The notes under the pieces: model-generated
The model's input: the letters and a program-made list of their open reading frames with translations, nothing else
Told to the model about the DNA's origin: nothing
The model's database searches: none
Made by a program: the position numbers and the translations under genes
NCBI RefSeq assembly: GCF_022921075.1
Contig: NZ_CP095050.1
Coordinates: 930,001 to 994,000, forward strand
Origin: Hymenobacter sp. 5317J-9
Lineage (GTDB): Bacteria > Bacteroidota > Bacteroidia > Cytophagales > Hymenobacteraceae
Reading direction: 5' to 3'
DNA: 64,000 nucleotides
Shown here: one piece after another, positions 1 through 58,568 of the stretch
How positions within the stretch are numbered: position 1 is the first letter of the stretch
Layout of the letters: each line of letters opens with the position of its first letter

Positions 1-96
1 GGCCAGGCATTGCGCAAAGTGGGAAGCCGGGTGGTGGCCATGCCGCTACAACGCCGGAGCAGGCCGGGATGGTATGCTGCCCAACAAAACCGCTAA
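1..96 (+). CDS. Possible C-terminal end of a truncated upstream gene
   Basis: Frame 1 is open from the window edge to a TAA at 94-96 and encodes about 31 residues ending WYAAQQNR. A perfect hairpin follows at 137-161, as expected for the 3' end of a transcription unit. No family can be assigned from so few residues. The competing reading, a longer ORF starting at 69 that runs through the hairpin, looks less natural. Confidence 0.3.
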   Translation, partial: GQALRKVGSRVVAMPLQRRSRPGWYAAQQNR

Positions 97-136: not shown

Positions 137-161
137 GACCACTGCGGCTGCCGCAGTGGTC
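137..161 (+). terminator. Perfect 11-bp hairpin, probable terminator
   Basis: GACCACTGCGG (137-147) and CCGCAGTGGTC (151-161) pair perfectly around a 3-nt loop. There is no strong T-run, so this could be a weak terminator or a regulatory hairpin. It argues that 97-183 is intergenic and that the next gene starts at ATG 184. Confidence 0.5.
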
Positions 162-183: not shown

Positions 184-491
184 ATGAAAAAAGGCTACCC
201 CCCCCCCCCCCCACGTATTGCCGGCTGAAGCAGGCATTATTCGTACTCGCTATGTTGATTAGCTGGCGACCCGCCGCGCAGGCCCAGCTTTACCTGGCTC
301 CGGATTGCAGCCAGCCCCAGACGTATACCGCCACGCTCGGCAGCCCCACCCAGACACAATTGCAGCCCACCGGGCAAGGCCTCTGGCGTGCTGATGTGAA
401 AGTGCGGGGCGTACCGGCTGGTCAATATGCTGCGCGGCTGCTAGTAGACGGGGTGCCGGTTTCAATGCAGAAAGTAGTTGTCAACCGTTAA
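184..491 (+). CDS. Small secreted protein with start and body out of frame across a C15 tract
   Basis: The body frame (stop at 489-491) encodes a hydrophobic signal-peptide core (LFVLAMLI), an AQA cleavage-like site, then about 70 mature residues. The C-terminus (GQYAARLLVDG...KVVV) resembles the last strands of a T9SS sorting domain. The best start, ATG 184 encoding MKKGY, is one nucleotide out of frame because the C-tract has 15 C. One extra C, or two fewer, would give a continuous protein of about 103 residues with an ordinary Lys-rich signal peptide. The alternative in-frame ATG at 69 would force translation through the 137-161 hairpin and bury the signal peptide internally. The gene may be phase-variable, broken or affected by a homopolymer sequencing error. 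Function is unknown. Confidence 0.5.
198..212 (+). repeat. Homopolymeric C15 tract
   Basis: Fifteen consecutive C residues lie four codons after the ATG at 184. With 15 C the ATG frame ends at TGA 226-228. With 13 or 16 C it would run on into the downstream secreted-protein frame. Confidence 0.9.
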
Positions 492-497
492 TTAGAA

Positions 498-531
498 GGG
501 CCGACTTTGGGATTTACTACCAAGGTCGGCC
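498..531 (+). terminator. Hairpin terminator after the small secreted protein
   Basis: The arms at 498-510 and 520-531 (GGCCGACTTTGG / CCAAGGTCGGCC) form a stem with one mismatch, just after the stop at 491 and before the next ORF at 542. Confidence 0.6.
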
Positions 532-541
532 TGCTTATTAT

Positions 542-2128
542 ATGTGGTGCAAGAAATGGGCAACGGTATTATTGCTGGGAGCAATAACCGTTTTCTCTGC
601 TGCTGCGCAGGGAGTTGGTGGGTGGGAGCGGTTGGACTTATTTGGCAACCCAGTTTCCAACAATGTGGGAAATACATATGGACGTTTCATACTTCAGCAA
701 GGCACTATCACTGTGTGCGCCAGCGCTTCTACTTATTTTGGTTACTGGGCGCAATATGATGAGTCAGGCAGTCGGAAATGGCAAAAAAGAGGGCGTAAAA
801 CTTCGGGTGGGTTAGTTGATGAGCCTTGGGGCCGCGGGGTATTTGCTGCCGGTACCCAACCCGCCAATAATGCTCTAGGCGTTACAAGCATTTTTCATTG
901 GCTGAATGCTCAAGGCGATACCATACGGGTGCTAGGTAGGCCAACAATTAATGTAGCACTCGAATACGGTAGTACGTTAGGATTACACGGCCGTTACTAC
1001 GTGGGAGGGGGCGGCGACGGCAGCGGGCTGGGGCAGCGCCCCATTGCCCTGCACTATTCGCTGGTGTGCCTCGACACGGCCGGCCGGTTTCGCTGGCAGC
1101 GGCAGTATCCCAACCCCGCCATTCGGCTCGGGCCGGCCGCCCCGGCTTTCGTGGGCGGCTACGCCTACCTGATGCAGGTACTGGAAGCCCCGCGCCAGCG
1201 CCTGCTGCTGCTGGGATACACCCAGCGCGACTCCGTTAGTTTCCAGCTTTATGCCATGGAGGTAGACACGGCCGGGCAGCTGCTGCGCACGCGCTGGGTC
1301 GAGCCCTTCGGGCGTCGGGCCTCGGTCACGATGACCAGCCTGACCAACGCCGTGCGCCTGCGCGACGGCAGCGGCTACGTGCTGACGGGGTTTGCCAAGA
1401 TTGACTCGCTTACGCGCACGCGCAGCCGCGGCTTCGTGGCCAAGCTCGACACGGCTCTGCGCGTGGTGTGGCGCACGCTGCTGCCCACGCCCAGCGCGGC
1501 CGGCCCGCCGGTGCAGGGCGTCGACGTGCAGCCGGGGCAGGTGCGCGAGCGCGCCGACGGCGGCTTCACCGTGCTCGTGACCGAGCAGGGCGGCCTAAGC
1601 CGCCGCCGCGAAAACGAGGTCGACTTCATTCGCCTCAACGCCCAGGGCCGGGTGCTGGGCTGGGACAGCTACTGCACCCAAACCTGCAACCGCGTGGAGC
1701 CCTACTCCTGGCAGTACCTGCCGGCCGACTCGTCCATCATCGTGAGCGGCTGGGGCGAGCAACGCGACGCGGTGGGGCGGGTGCTGGCCCGTCCGGCCTG
1801 GTTGGCGCGGCTGGCCGGGGCGCCCTGCCGGCGCTACGTGGTGCCGGCCGTGCCCACCGCCGCGCGGGCCGGGGCCGGGGTGGATGCGCCGGGCCTCTAC
1901 CCGCAGCCGGCCCGCGCCGGCGACGTGGTGCGCCTCACCAATGGGGGACCCGCCCGCCCGGTGCGCCTGCTCGACGCGCTGGGGCGTGAGGTGGCGCGCT
2001 GGCCCGCGCCCGCCCGCGCCGGCGGCGCCCTGGTGCTGCCCCTGCCCGCCGGCCTGCGCCCGGGCCTCTACCTGGTGCAGGCCCTGGGCGGCGCACCCAT
2101 CACGGCCCGGCTGCTGGTGAGCGAGTGA
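542..2128 (+). CDS. Secreted protein with C-terminal T9SS sorting domain
   Basis: This 528-residue protein begins with a signal peptide (MWCKKWATVLLLGAIT, cleavage near SAAAQG). The body is rich in beta-strand repeats of the kind found in Bacteroidota surface propeller proteins, with no recognisable catalytic motif. The last 80 or so residues have the order of a type-A T9SS sorting domain: LYPQPA, then VRLLDALGREV, then GLYLVQ and a final RLLV strand. It is therefore probably exported through the Sec and type IX systems to the surface or medium. Base composition shifts at about 1.0 kb: the first 450 bp of the gene are AT-richer than the rest. Substrate or role is unknown. Confidence 0.75.
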   Translation: MWCKKWATVLLLGAITVFSAAAQGVGGWERLDLFGNPVSNNVGNTYGRFILQQGTITVCASASTYFGYWAQYDESGSRKWQKRGRKTSGGLVDEPWGRGVFAAGTQPANNALGVTSIFHWLNAQGDTIRVLGRPTINVALEYGSTLGLHGRYYVGGGGDGSGLGQRPIALHYSLVCLDTAGRFRWQRQYPNPAIRLGPAAPAFVGGYAYLMQVLEAPRQRLLLLGYTQRDSVSFQLYAMEVDTAGQLLRTRWVEPFGRRASVTMTSLTNAVRLRDGSGYVLTGFAKIDSLTRTRSRGFVAKLDTALRVVWRTLLPTPSAAGPPVQGVDVQPGQVRERADGGFTVLVTEQGGLSRRRENEVDFIRLNAQGRVLGWDSYCTQTCNRVEPYSWQYLPADSSIIVSGWGEQRDAVGRVLARPAWLARLAGAPCRRYVVPAVPTAARAGAGVDAPGLYPQPARAGDVVRLTNGGPARPVRLLDALGREVARWPAPARAGGALVLPLPAGLRPGLYLVQALGGAPITARLLVSE

Positions 2129-20616: not shown

Positions 20617-20725
20617 GAACGTCATGCAGAGCGCAGCGAAGCATCTCGCTCGGAGCAGCAACCCTTTTCCTGCGATTGAGTTACTACCCCGAGCGAGATG
20701 CTTCGCTGCGCTCTGCATGACGTTC
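20617..20725. repeat. REPIN-like paired palindrome, copy 6
   Basis: GAACGTCATGCAGAGCGCAG and its complement, extended by CTCGCTCGG / CCGAGCGAG, flank a 30-bp spacer between the MFS and cupin genes. Confidence 0.9.
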
Positions 20726-21962: not shown

Positions 21963-22054
21963 CGTCATGCTGAGCGCAGTCGAAGCATCTCTCCCGCAGC
22001 AGTAAAACCAATTACTTGTGCGGGAGAGATGCTTCGACTGCGCTCAGCATGACG
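21963..22054. repeat. REPIN-like paired palindrome, copy 7
   Basis: CGTCATGCTGAGCGCAGTCG and its complement flank a spacer ending TTGTGCGGGAG. It has the same GCTGAGCGCAGTC arm type as copy 1. Confidence 0.9.
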
Positions 22055-26800: not shown

Positions 26801-27678
26801 ATGACTCCCGCCATCCTGCTGCCCGCCGCCAGCTATGAATTTGCCAGCATCCAAAAGGTAAGCGGTGCCGGCCCGCCCGTGCCGGCCTCCGACCAACTGG
26901 CCGCCGAGGAACCGCTCGAAATCCGCGTGGGCTACGATGCCGGGGGCAGCGCCAGCACCGCACCCTCTCGGTCACCATGCGCACGCCCGGCCACGACGAA
27001 GAGCTGGCCGCAGGCTTCCTGCTCACCGAAGGCCTCATCCACAACAAAAAAGACCTACTCGGCATCATTCCCTGCCCCGACGTGCAAAAGGCCGAGGAGG
27101 CAGGCAATGTGGTGCGCGCCGAGCTGGCCGCGCACGTGCAAGTCGATTTTGCGGCCATGGAACGGCATTTTTACACCAGTTCCAGCTGCGGTGTGTGCGG
27201 CAAAACCAGCATTGATGCCGTGCGCACGGCCTCCTGCCCGGTGCTGCCTGCCGAGGGGCCGCACCTCAGCTACGCCACGGTGCACCGGCTGCCGGAGCGG
27301 CTGCGCGCGGCTCAGGCCGGCTTCGAGCAAACCGGCGGGCAGCACGCTTCGGCGCTGTTTTCGCCGACGGGCGAACTGCTGCTGCTGCGCGAGGACGTGG
27401 GCCGGCACAATGCCTTGGATAAAGTCATTGGGGCGGCGCTGCTGGCTGGCTGGCTGCCGCTACACCAGCACATTCTGCTGGTGAGCGGGCGCGTCAGCTT
27501 CGAGCTGGTGCAGAAGGCGGCGGCGGCCGGCATCGGCGTGCTGGCCGCCGTGGGCGCGCCCAGCAGCTTGGCCATTCAGGCCGCCGAGAGCTTCGGCATG
27601 ACGGTGCTCGGCTTTGTGCGCAACGAGCGGTTCAACGTGTACTGCCACGGGTGGCGTTTGACGGAGCGCGCCGAATAA
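26801..27678 (+). pseudogene. fdhD: fdhD, sulfur carrier for formate dehydrogenase, split by a one-base frameshift
   Basis: FdhD delivers sulfur to the molybdenum cofactor of formate dehydrogenases. The N-terminal part (MTPAILLPAAS... LAAEEPLEIRV) is in the frame of ATG 26801. From about 26947 the conserved protein continues in another frame: TLSVTMRTPGHDEELAAGFLLTEG, then the active-site loop SSCGVCGKTS and [10 protein letters not shown]. The break coincides with a run of five G (26942-26946). One extra G would give a continuous EIRVGYDAGGQRQHRTLSV and a full-length protein of about 292 residues. As read, the protein is disrupted; sequencing error or slippage are alternatives. The 3' part alone (ATG 26977) lacks the N-terminal strands. 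Confidence 0.8.
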
Positions 27679-35425: not shown

Positions 35426-35526
35426 GTCATGCAGAGCGCAGCGAAGCATCTCGCTTGCTCAAACTGATTCAACTGACTGAATAGATTACTTGAGCAAGCG
35501 AGATGCTTCGCTGCGCTCTGCATGAC
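35426..35526. repeat. REPIN-like paired palindrome, copy 9
   Basis: GTCATGCAGAGCGCAGCGAA and its complement, extended by CTCGCTTGCTCAA / TTGAGCAAGCGAG, make the longest inner stem of the set. Confidence 0.9.
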
Positions 35527-50537: not shown

Positions 50538-50637
50538 CGTCATGCAGAGCGCAGCGAAGCATCTTGCTCGCAATAGCTAACTCTTCCGACTGAATTACTT
50601 ACTGCGGGCAAGATGCTTCGCTGCGCTCTGCATGACG
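50538..50637. repeat. REPIN-like paired palindrome, copy 11
   Basis: CGTCATGCAGAGCGCAGCGA and its complement, extended by CTTGCTCGC / GCGGGCAAG (one mismatch), lie between the kinase and dusB. Confidence 0.9.
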
Positions 50638-55786: not shown

Positions 55787-56449
55787 ATGAAAATACACAA
55801 AGAAGGACGACGCATCCTGTTCGTTACGCTGCTGATTTTGCTAGCGCTGAACTTGTTGATGTTTTATTTCAACCGGGGCAATACGCTGGTTAACCGCTTG
55901 TTCGCGGGGGCTACGGTCATCATTTTCCTGCTGATTCTGCAGTTTTTTCGCAGCCCGTTCCGCCACATGTTCACCCACGAAGACCTGCTGCTGGCGCCCG
56001 CCGACGGCAAGGTGGTGGTGATTGAGAACGTGTTTGAGCCCGAGTATTTCGAGGATGAGCGCAAGCAAATCAGCATTTTCATGTCGCCCATCAACGTACA
56101 CGTCACGCGCAACCCGATTTCGGGCATCGTGAAGTACTTCAAGTACCATCCCGGCAACTACCTGGTGGCCTGGCACCCCAAAAGCAGCACCCAGAACGAG
56201 CGCACCACCGTGGTGGTGGAGTCCGACGCCGGCCCGCTGGTGCTTTTCCGGCAGATTGCCGGCGCCATGGCCCGCCGCATTGTGTGGTACGTGAACGAAG
56301 GCGACGAAGTGAACCAGGGCGAGGAGTTCGGCTTCATCAAGTTCGGCTCGCGCGTGGACGTATTTGTACCGCTCGATACGGAGGTGAAAGTGGAGCTGGG
56401 CCAGAAAGTGAAAGGCGGCGAAACCGTCATTTGCCAGCTCAAAGTCTGA
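55787..56449 (+). CDS. psd: Phosphatidylserine decarboxylase proenzyme
   Basis: Psd decarboxylates phosphatidylserine to phosphatidylethanolamine. The 220-residue protein has two N-terminal membrane helices, then LLAPADGKVVVIENV, SIFMSPINVHVTRNPISG, and the autocatalytic site FGSRVDVF, where cleavage between Gly 187 and Ser 188 creates the pyruvoyl group. The short type matches the Bacteroidota form. No phosphatidylserine synthase gene lies in the window. It acts at the cytoplasmic membrane and is followed by a terminator. Confidence 0.93.
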   Translation: MKIHKEGRRILFVTLLILLALNLLMFYFNRGNTLVNRLFAGATVIIFLLILQFFRSPFRHMFTHEDLLLAPADGKVVVIENVFEPEYFEDERKQISIFMSPINVHVTRNPISGIVKYFKYHPGNYLVAWHPKSSTQNERTTVVVESDAGPLVLFRQIAGAMARRIVWYVNEGDEVNQGEEFGFIKFGSRVDVFVPLDTEVKVELGQKVKGGETVICQLKV

Positions 56450-56486
56450 GCCAAGGACGCCATACAACCATAGAGTAAATACAGGG

Positions 56487-56513
56487 AAGGCCACTCAATC
56501 GAGTGGCCTTTTT
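56487..56513 (+). terminator. Rho-independent terminator after psd
   Basis: AAGGCCACTC and GAGTGGCCTT pair around AATC and are followed by TTTG. Confidence 0.85.
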
Positions 56514-56534
56514 GTTTGTAGAATCTACATTAAC

Positions 56535-56565
56535 CGTCATACCTCGACTCCGCTCAGCATGACAG
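56535..56565. repeat. Degenerate single-arm REP fragment
   Basis: CGTCATACCTCGACTCCGCT then CAGCATGAC resembles the two termini of a REPIN with the middle lost. Confidence 0.5.
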
Positions 56566-56580
56566 ATGGAGCGAAGTGGT

Positions 56581-57756
56581 TCAGACCAGGATGTGCGGCA
56601 CAAACTCCGATAGGTTGATGATGAGGCCGGCCTCGCGGCGAAAGCCAATGGCGCAGGCCTCGCCGGCCCAGAACACGCCAGCCTGGTAGCGGCGGCCCTG
56701 GGCGTCGGTGGGCAGTTCGGCCCAGCGCTGGTAGAGCTGCGGCTGCTGGCCAAACTCGCCGGGGACTTCGGCACCGGGGCGGCCGTCGGCTTGCACCTCG
56801 GCCACGTTCTGGCCCTCGCGGCCCAGCACGGGCTTGCGCACGTGGTGGCCGGGCAGCGGGCTCAGGCTGGCTTCGAGCAGCAGCGGGTGGTGCGGAAACG
56901 TTTCCCAGAGGTGGGCCAGCAGGGCCTTGCTTTGGAAGAGCAGGGCGTAGGCCGGGTTGGCCATCACCACGTCGCGGGTGAGCTGAAGTTGTACCAGGTC
57001 GGCGGTGAGTTCGGGCTCTTCTTCGGCCAGAATTTCCCAGGGCACCAGCTTGAACAGGAAGTCGAACTTCTGCCACTGGCCGGGCACCGATTCGGCCCAT
57101 ACGCCCCGGTCTTCGCCCTGCACCGATACCGTCATGGCATCCACGGAGCACATAAATACGTCGGCAAAACCGGCCGTGCGAGCCGCTTCGGCCAGCACGG
57201 CGCAGTTGGCTTCGTCCTCGGCGCTGTCGGGCAGGTGCACGAGCAGGAGCGTGGCTTGCCGGTCCTGGTTGAGGGCGCGCCAGTGGCGGAACTGGTCTTC
57301 GAGGCACTCGAACAGGCCGTTGGCCTGGCGTTCATCGTCGGATTGGCCGGCGGCGACCAGGCTGGCCCATTGCACCACGGCGGTTTCGGGCAGGCCGGTG
57401 GCGGTATCGGCGTTAAATTCGAGGAGCTTGGAGCCGTCGGCCGTCAGGGCCATATCGAAGCGTCCGTAGAAGTGCCAGTGCCGCTCGTCGTGCCAGGAGT
57501 GACGCACGGCTTCCCACAGGTTAGCCGGGATAGCCAGTTTGTGCAGCAGCGCATCGGGAATGGGGTCGGGAATGGCTTCCACCAGCATGTCGTAGAGCGT
57601 ATCGGCTGCTTGGAGCAGCGTCTCGGCGTCGGCTTCCGGGAGCAGCACGGCTTCACGGGCCACGTAGTTCTGGCAGGCGTCTTCGATAGCCCAGTCCCAG
57701 CCCAGGGCCTGCACGGCCGGCGCTACGTCGCCAGAGAGGGGGAGAAGGTTAATCAT
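56581..57756 (-). CDS. Glutathionylspermidine-synthase-like ATP-grasp enzyme
   Basis: The 391-residue protein matches the GSP_synth family: HWHFYGRFDMALTADGSKLLEFNADTA near residue 100 and the ATP-site block HVRKPVLGREGQNV near 305. Family members form an amide bond between glutathione-like peptides and polyamines, but bacterial homologues of this short form are mostly uncharacterised and are often next to a DUF350 membrane protein, absent here. The IS5-type element begins about 18 bp upstream of the ATG and probably separates the gene from its promoter. Confidence 0.85.
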   Translation of the reverse strand: MINLLPLSGDVAPAVQALGWDWAIEDACQNYVAREAVLLPEADAETLLQAADTLYDMLVEAIPDPIPDALLHKLAIPANLWEAVRHSWHDERHWHFYGRFDMALTADGSKLLEFNADTATGLPETAVVQWASLVAAGQSDDERQANGLFECLEDQFRHWRALNQDRQATLLLVHLPDSAEDEANCAVLAEAARTAGFADVFMCSVDAMTVSVQGEDRGVWAESVPGQWQKFDFLFKLVPWEILAEEEPELTADLVQLQLTRDVVMANPAYALLFQSKALLAHLWETFPHHPLLLEASLSPLPGHHVRKPVLGREGQNVAEVQADGRPGAEVPGEFGQQPQLYQRWAELPTDAQGRRYQAGVFWAGEACAIGFRREAGLIINLSEFVPHILV

Positions 57757-57774
57757 CTGCGGGGATATAAACTA

Positions 57775-58568
57775 GGAAGTGTTAACAGTAGGTATTAATT
57801 TGGGGTATGGATTATTTGCTCACAGACGCGCAGTGGGCCCGCATCGCGCCGCTGCTGCCGGGTCGGGAAGGCACGAAAGGTGGCCGGGGCCAGGACAACC
57901 GCCGTTTTGTAGAAGCGGTGCTGTGGTTGTTGCGCAACGGCTGCCGCTGGCGTGCCTTGCCGGCCGCGTGGGGCAACTGGCACACAACATACACGCGCTT
58001 CCAGCGCTGGACCGCCTCGGGCGTGTGGGCCCGGGTGCTGGCCGCCGTGCAAGAGGACGACGCGCTGCACACGCTGCTGGTCGACTCGACCACCGTGCGG
58101 GTGCACCAACACGCGAGCGGGGCACGCAAAAAAACGGGCCGCAAGCCCTGGGGCGTAGCCGCGGCGGATTGACCACCAAGCTGCACGCGGTGGCCGACGC
58201 TGGGGGCCGGTTCGTGCGCGGCAGCCTGACAGCCGGCCAGCGCCACGACGCCCCGCAAGCGCTGCCGCTGCTCGACGGGCTGGCCCCGGCCTACCTCGTG
58301 GCCGACCGGGGCTACGATTCCGACCCGCTCGTGGCCACCCTGGCTGCCCGCGGCACCTGTGCCGTGATTCCGCCCCGGTGCAAGCGCCGCTACCCGCGGG
58401 GCTACGACGCGGCGCGTTACGCCCAACGTCACCCCATTGAGCGCCTTTTCAGCCGCCTCAAGCAGTTTCGCCGCGTGGCCACCCGGTATGACAAACTCGA
58501 TGCGCATTTTTTGGCCTTTATTCACCTCGCTGCAACCGTCCTGTGGCTACGCGACTGTTAACACTTCC
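57775..58568 (+). mobile_element. IS5-family insertion sequence (IS427-like)
   Basis: Ends GGAAGTGTTAACAGT (57775-57789) and its exact complement ACTGTTAACACTTCC (58554-58568) form 15-bp perfect terminal inverted repeats. TA flanks both ends (57773-57774 and 58569-58570), a likely target duplication. The 794-bp element holds a transposase in two overlapping frames. The intact ends suggest recent arrival. Confidence 0.92.
57807..58561 (+). CDS. IS5-family transposase made by -1 frameshift
   Basis: The first frame (57807-58172) encodes 121 residues, including RFVEAVLWLLRNGCRWRALP and the first catalytic Asp in LLVDSTTVRVHQH. It continues one base back into the second frame, which encodes GPQALGRSRGGLTTKLHAV, the second Asp in VADRGYDSD, and the Glu in HPIERLFSRLKQF, a complete DDE set. 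The overlap contains a run of seven A (about 58128-58134), the probable slip site. Each half alone lacks part of the active site. The 5' half has family PF13340-type sequence (DUF4096-like), as in many IS5/IS427 elements. Confidence 0.85.

Follow-up and report, generated by a model that had tools for sequence, protein, structure and literature searches.

We consider it likely that a tract of 15 C close behind a start codon in the analyzed window (the whole stretch of Hymenobacter DNA, 64 kb long) is a vestigial repeat switch that came down from a phase-variable family of secreted proteins and stayed in place after the body of its gene had been lost. The tract lies at 198-212, 3′ of ATG 184-186, in the layout ATG AAA AAA GGC TAC(C)n, where the first C of the tract is the third base of TAC. 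With 15 C, reading from ATG 184 gives 14 codons and a stop (TGA 226-228), and the frame with the signal-peptide core LKQALFVLAMLISWRPAAQAQ is open to TAA 489-491. This out-of-frame arrangement had been described in the original prediction, as had its repair by 16 or 13 C, and both were reproduced. When one C is added (C16) or two are removed (C13), ATG 184 is fused to the signal-peptide frame (MKKGYPPPPPTYCRLKQALFVLAML..., about 102 residues with C16). Gain or loss of units at the tract would toggle between a short peptide and the longer protein. The features of the window are as follows.

1-41, minus strand: 5′ end of a divergent OmpA-like gene (381 aa, extending past the window; ORF L007 6896-8041 minus, mapped to the window).
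137-161, plus strand: hairpin of 11 perfectly paired bp, 5′ of ATG 184 and between the starts of the two divergent genes.
184-228, plus strand: OFF-frame ORF from ATG 184 to TGA, MKKGYPPPPPRIAG and stop.
198-212, plus strand: C15 tract in the signal-peptide n-region; its homologue is the C8 of G115:C1, and the C13 at C1:56225 is analogous.
225-287, plus strand: core of the signal peptide, which at C15 is not in the ATG 184 frame.
288-347, plus strand: what remains of the mature N-terminus, a part homologous to the N-terminal end of the 838-855-aa family.
351-491, plus strand: what is left of the C-terminal domain (its last ~45 residues) and the stop codon; of the sorting domain, the YPNP part is absent.
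498-532, plus strand: 13-bp hairpin in the gap that separates the remnant from the next gene, without a U tract (z = -5.29).
542-2128, plus strand: 528-aa secreted protein with a weak T9SS sorting domain.
2201-2265, 2799-2852, 20637-20705, 21981-22036, 35442-35510 and 50555-50620: palindromic repeats dispersed through the window, their arms having GCGAGATGCTTCG (14 matches against 0.14 expected).
57823-58528: the codon model changes frame here on the same strand, which may mark a split transposase-like gene.

The preference for ATG 184 over the upstream ATG 69 holds. A start at ATG 69 was ruled out because the open frame 5′ of 183 is partly antisense to the divergent OmpA-like gene, which starts at about window position 41, and because DNA-level alignment matches ATG 184 to the start codon of a homologue in genome G115. 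The hairpin that had been cited in favor of ATG 184 is indeed present, with 11 pairs at -22.3 kcal/mol (z = -2.85). A scan for sigma-70-type promoters 5′ of 184, with a model that does not cover Bacteroidota promoters, found none.

The small window ORF matches both ends of a single 855-residue frame in G115. The C-terminal match has 58% identity over 45 residues, and the N-terminal match is weaker. The window copy still has its signal peptide and about 20 N-terminal and 45 C-terminal residues, with about 700 residues missing between these two ends. The secreted protein of 103 residues that was originally proposed therefore stands as an open frame of about 102 residues with C16, but not as a complete protein, as it is most likely an internally deleted remnant of a secreted family of about 840-855 residues. 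Codon composition was uninformative as support for the small ORF because the same codon model overlooks the first third of the 528-aa gene as well.

That 528-aa gene at 542-2128 is conserved 3′ of the intact family members, with 51-65% identity across the set. Three intact members were found. First, G115 has a frame of 855 residues with C8 at the aligned site, in frame. Second, a paralogue in this genome at C1:5.076-5.079 Mb has a frame of 838 residues, with its signal peptide put out of frame by (CT)15; the repeat is at L277 4906-4936 (G000 C1 about 5,078,405-5,078,436). Third, G043 has (CT)11 in the signal peptide, in frame. With its frame intact, the (CT)15 paralogue is a better candidate for phase variation than the window copy. 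The intact members end in a weak T9SS type A sorting domain, scoring 19-25 bits, just under the cut-off; the best scores (TIGR04183, 21.1 of 23 bits; PF18962, 25.3 of 27 bits) come from full-length alignments and stay below it. In the window product (P0001), the first half of this domain is missing, and neither Pfam nor NCBIfam gave a match. A search for PDB relatives of the long family found none.

The locus may accordingly be a plain pseudogene, at which slippage would be without consequence, and we judge this about evenly balanced, tilting slightly toward true. The extent of the loss, which includes the YPNP part, and the lack of any family model matching the remnant speak for it. So do two other sites: G043 has a second, decayed copy adjoining the same downstream gene, and this genome has a third copy of the downstream gene without any upstream partner, indicating that loss of the first gene is recurrent. 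Against it, 88 codons of the remnant remain open, in a frame matching the family at both ends, and its signal peptide looks intact. In sum, the window copy is probably a degenerate remnant.

The preferred reading, a vestigial switch, draws on how unusual the tract is and on where similar tracts occur. The second-longest run of C or G in the window has 6 bases. Pattern searches across the genome (5.4 Mb, three contigs) returned only two C or G runs of at least 12, namely the window C15 and a C13 at C1:56225-56237. The C15 is thus a long simple repeat in a 5′ coding region, exceptional for this genome. The C13 sits in ATG AAA AAC TTC TAC(C)n and cuts the start off from the signal peptide RRQRLFWLLAMCSWLTVGQSSAQ by one missing C. 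Both runs follow ATG-AAA-NNN-NNN-TAC and interrupt a signal peptide. The C13 gene (L008 4212-6465, G000 C1 about 56,211-58,464) encodes a secreted protein and also has an apparent one-base gap in its middle; in its G103 orthologue, a C8 tract is followed by a single 749-aa frame. The third tract of this kind is a C10 at C1:2,650,132, which lies in frame in MKIFTPPPSLTKKLLLLVCCTMARFAAGQA, ahead of a 352-aa product with weak metalloprotease matches.

Among the seven runs of at least 10 C or G in the genome, three are found in signal-peptide genes, 6-30 nt past the ATG. Such positions make up ~0.45% of strand positions, a background taken from the window by means of a simple rule for signal peptides, and the binomial P is about 3e-6, to be taken as an order of magnitude only because the rule is approximate and itself missed two of the three peptides. 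The tract layout is very unlikely to be due to chance. Incidentally, a C10/G10 run at L154 about 1502 (G000 C1 3,794,530) lies shortly 5′ of an apparent secreted-protein gene start on the opposite strand and is possibly a repeat located in a promoter or leader.

The layout was found in further members of the genus (120 genomes): C13 in G067, C14 and C13 in G097, C14 in G094 (lipoprotein), C13 and C10 in G096, C18 in G034 (lipoprotein), C11 in G058 and C10 in G079 (lipoprotein). By an approximate count, ~9 of the ~376 C runs of at least 11 in the genus fit it. As a general rule for long C runs in the genus, the layout was rejected, since among 30 unselected long C runs from other members, none (0/30) was in the context of a start and a signal peptide.

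Differences in tract length with the protein otherwise conserved, which the original prediction proposed to look for in relatives, are present at analogous loci. For one conserved gene, G079 has C10 (ON) whereas G058 has C11 (OFF), and homologues in G067 and G097 have C13 and C14, respectively. In a scan of 84,980 species, analogous cases appeared in several phyla among the matches listed, of which the clearest is a pair of Aequorivita species. In A. antarctica, C12 reads through into a hydrolase-like protein (ON); in A. capsosiphonis, whose DNA is otherwise closely similar, C11 leads to a stop after 11 codons (OFF). The 913-aa frame that follows is conserved in the pair, with a sorting-domain-like tail. 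For the window locus itself, the comparison is with one distant homologue, the C8 of G115.

CT repeats occur in the signal peptides of family members and of related genomes, and thus take the same functional place as poly-C. Repeats of at least nine CT units are very rare in the 120 genomes, being found at four places by the pattern, plus the (CT)15 of this genome, which the pattern missed because of the base preceding it. Four of these five lie within signal peptides. At eight units, two more signal-peptide cases were found, a lipoprotein of G094 and a second gene of G096. A reversed control pattern had no match in any genome. Some CT repeats could come partly from codon preference rather than from switching, because signal peptides rich in Leu and Ser favor CTC and TCT codons.

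The OFF state could be an artifact of long-read homopolymer undercalling: the true tract would have 16 C, and the gene would be ON in the sequenced strain, although the repeat would still be prone to slippage. We regard this as a real possibility but lean against it. Both long C tracts of the assembly are one C short of ON, and two other genes seem to have lost a base: the 56-kb gene, by its gap relative to the G103 orthologue, and an FdhD/NarQ-family gene (window 26801-27678), which is split into two frames at a break near 26945-26952 beside a G5 run, either a possible assembly indel or a real mutation. On the other hand, the frame is broken likewise in the (CT)15 paralogue, whose repeat is not a homopolymer, and the C10 at C1:2,650,132 reads in frame. 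Out-of-frame poly-C is also seen in multi-contig, likely short-read assemblies of other species (G067, G097, G094 and G034) and in Aequorivita. Assembly error, named at the outset as the main alternative, remains live for the exact C count and the OFF state, both insecure because of the other apparent one-base losses, but it does not do away with the repeat itself, and it leaves unexplained the out-of-frame (CT)15 paralogue and the tracts seen in assemblies of other species.

RNA polymerase slippage or ribosomal frameshifting might instead yield a steady minority of full-length product, without genetic switching. In its favor, most of the tracts found (~10 of 14) are out of frame, including the short C8 of G103 with its intact 749-aa frame downstream. 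However, about one-third being in frame is what random phase would give, and the differences in DNA tract length between related genes, together with CT repeats in the same role, suit slippage of DNA, so that this explanation is unlikely. Even less likely is neutral expansion of poly-proline by chance in a flexible n-region, for although n-regions tolerate sequence change and long C runs in the genus are mostly found in other places, it is opposed by the positional excess in this genome, the homologous tract in G115, the fact that paralogues have different repeat types at this place, and the frequency of out-of-frame lengths.

We therefore return to a simple-sequence-repeat switch in the signal-peptide coding region as the probable origin of the C15. 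Slipped-strand mispairing at replication would add or remove single C and so set whether the signal-peptide core is read from ATG 184. This design would go back to a phase-variable family of secreted proteins that have poly-C or CT repeats in the signal peptide and a second secreted-protein gene 3′ of them. Later, about 700 residues of the gene body would have been lost, presumably by an in-frame deletion, making the ON product a remnant of about 102 residues that may have no function. Because most of the gene body is gone, the switch may now control little and is probably vestigial. The phase-variable switch of the original prediction is thus upheld in its layout, which recurs, in the varied tract lengths of relatives and in the CT repeats of the paralogue and other genes, but is weakened in that the product is a remnant and the OFF state is insecure.

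The wider genus pattern is more interesting than the window copy. We moderately favor the view that poly-C and CT repeats in signal peptides form an interchangeable contingency system for T9SS-type secreted proteins and lipoproteins in this genus, and probably in other Bacteroidota; members of one family would carry different repeat types, and the window locus would be a decayed member still bearing its switch. Phase variation by slippage is best known from animal-associated pathogens. Signal-peptide switches in a seemingly environmental genus of Bacteroidota suggest that surface and secreted proteins are diversified for other reasons, candidates being phage or predator pressure and colony-level bet hedging. 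If so, annotation calls for caution, as genes that are merely OFF would be taken for pseudogenes or short ORFs, and homopolymer errors of long reads can imitate the OFF state.

The mechanism is already known from Neisseria and Helicobacter, and its use in this genus appears to be undescribed. Among the papers searched, none linked Hymenobacter to phase variation, and those that mention both type IX secretion and phase variation name neither in title or abstract, although such absence proves little. Three known systems can be compared. First, as in T9SS type A sorting-domain proteins (TIGR04183/PF18962), intact family members carry the C-terminal sorting domain, albeit in weak form, whereas the window remnant retains only the last ~45 residues, with no model match. 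Second, nalP/mspA of Neisseria meningitidis undergoes poly-C phase variation with tract lengths of 6-15 (PMC3723659). The likeness is that poly-C lies inside the coding sequence of an exported protein and that its length modulo 3 sets ON or OFF (PMC3723659). The differences are that the Neisseria proteins are autotransporters rather than T9SS-type, and that their variation was shown in populations and by immunoblot, whereas ours is in silico and the window copy is truncated. Third, in oipA of Helicobacter pylori, the reading frame is switched by CT repeats located where the signal peptide is encoded (PMC10564699). OipA is an outer-membrane protein of another phylum, and the window copy has poly-C instead of CT, but the intact paralogue at C1:5.076-5.079 Mb is like oipA in having its CT repeat in the signal-peptide coding region.
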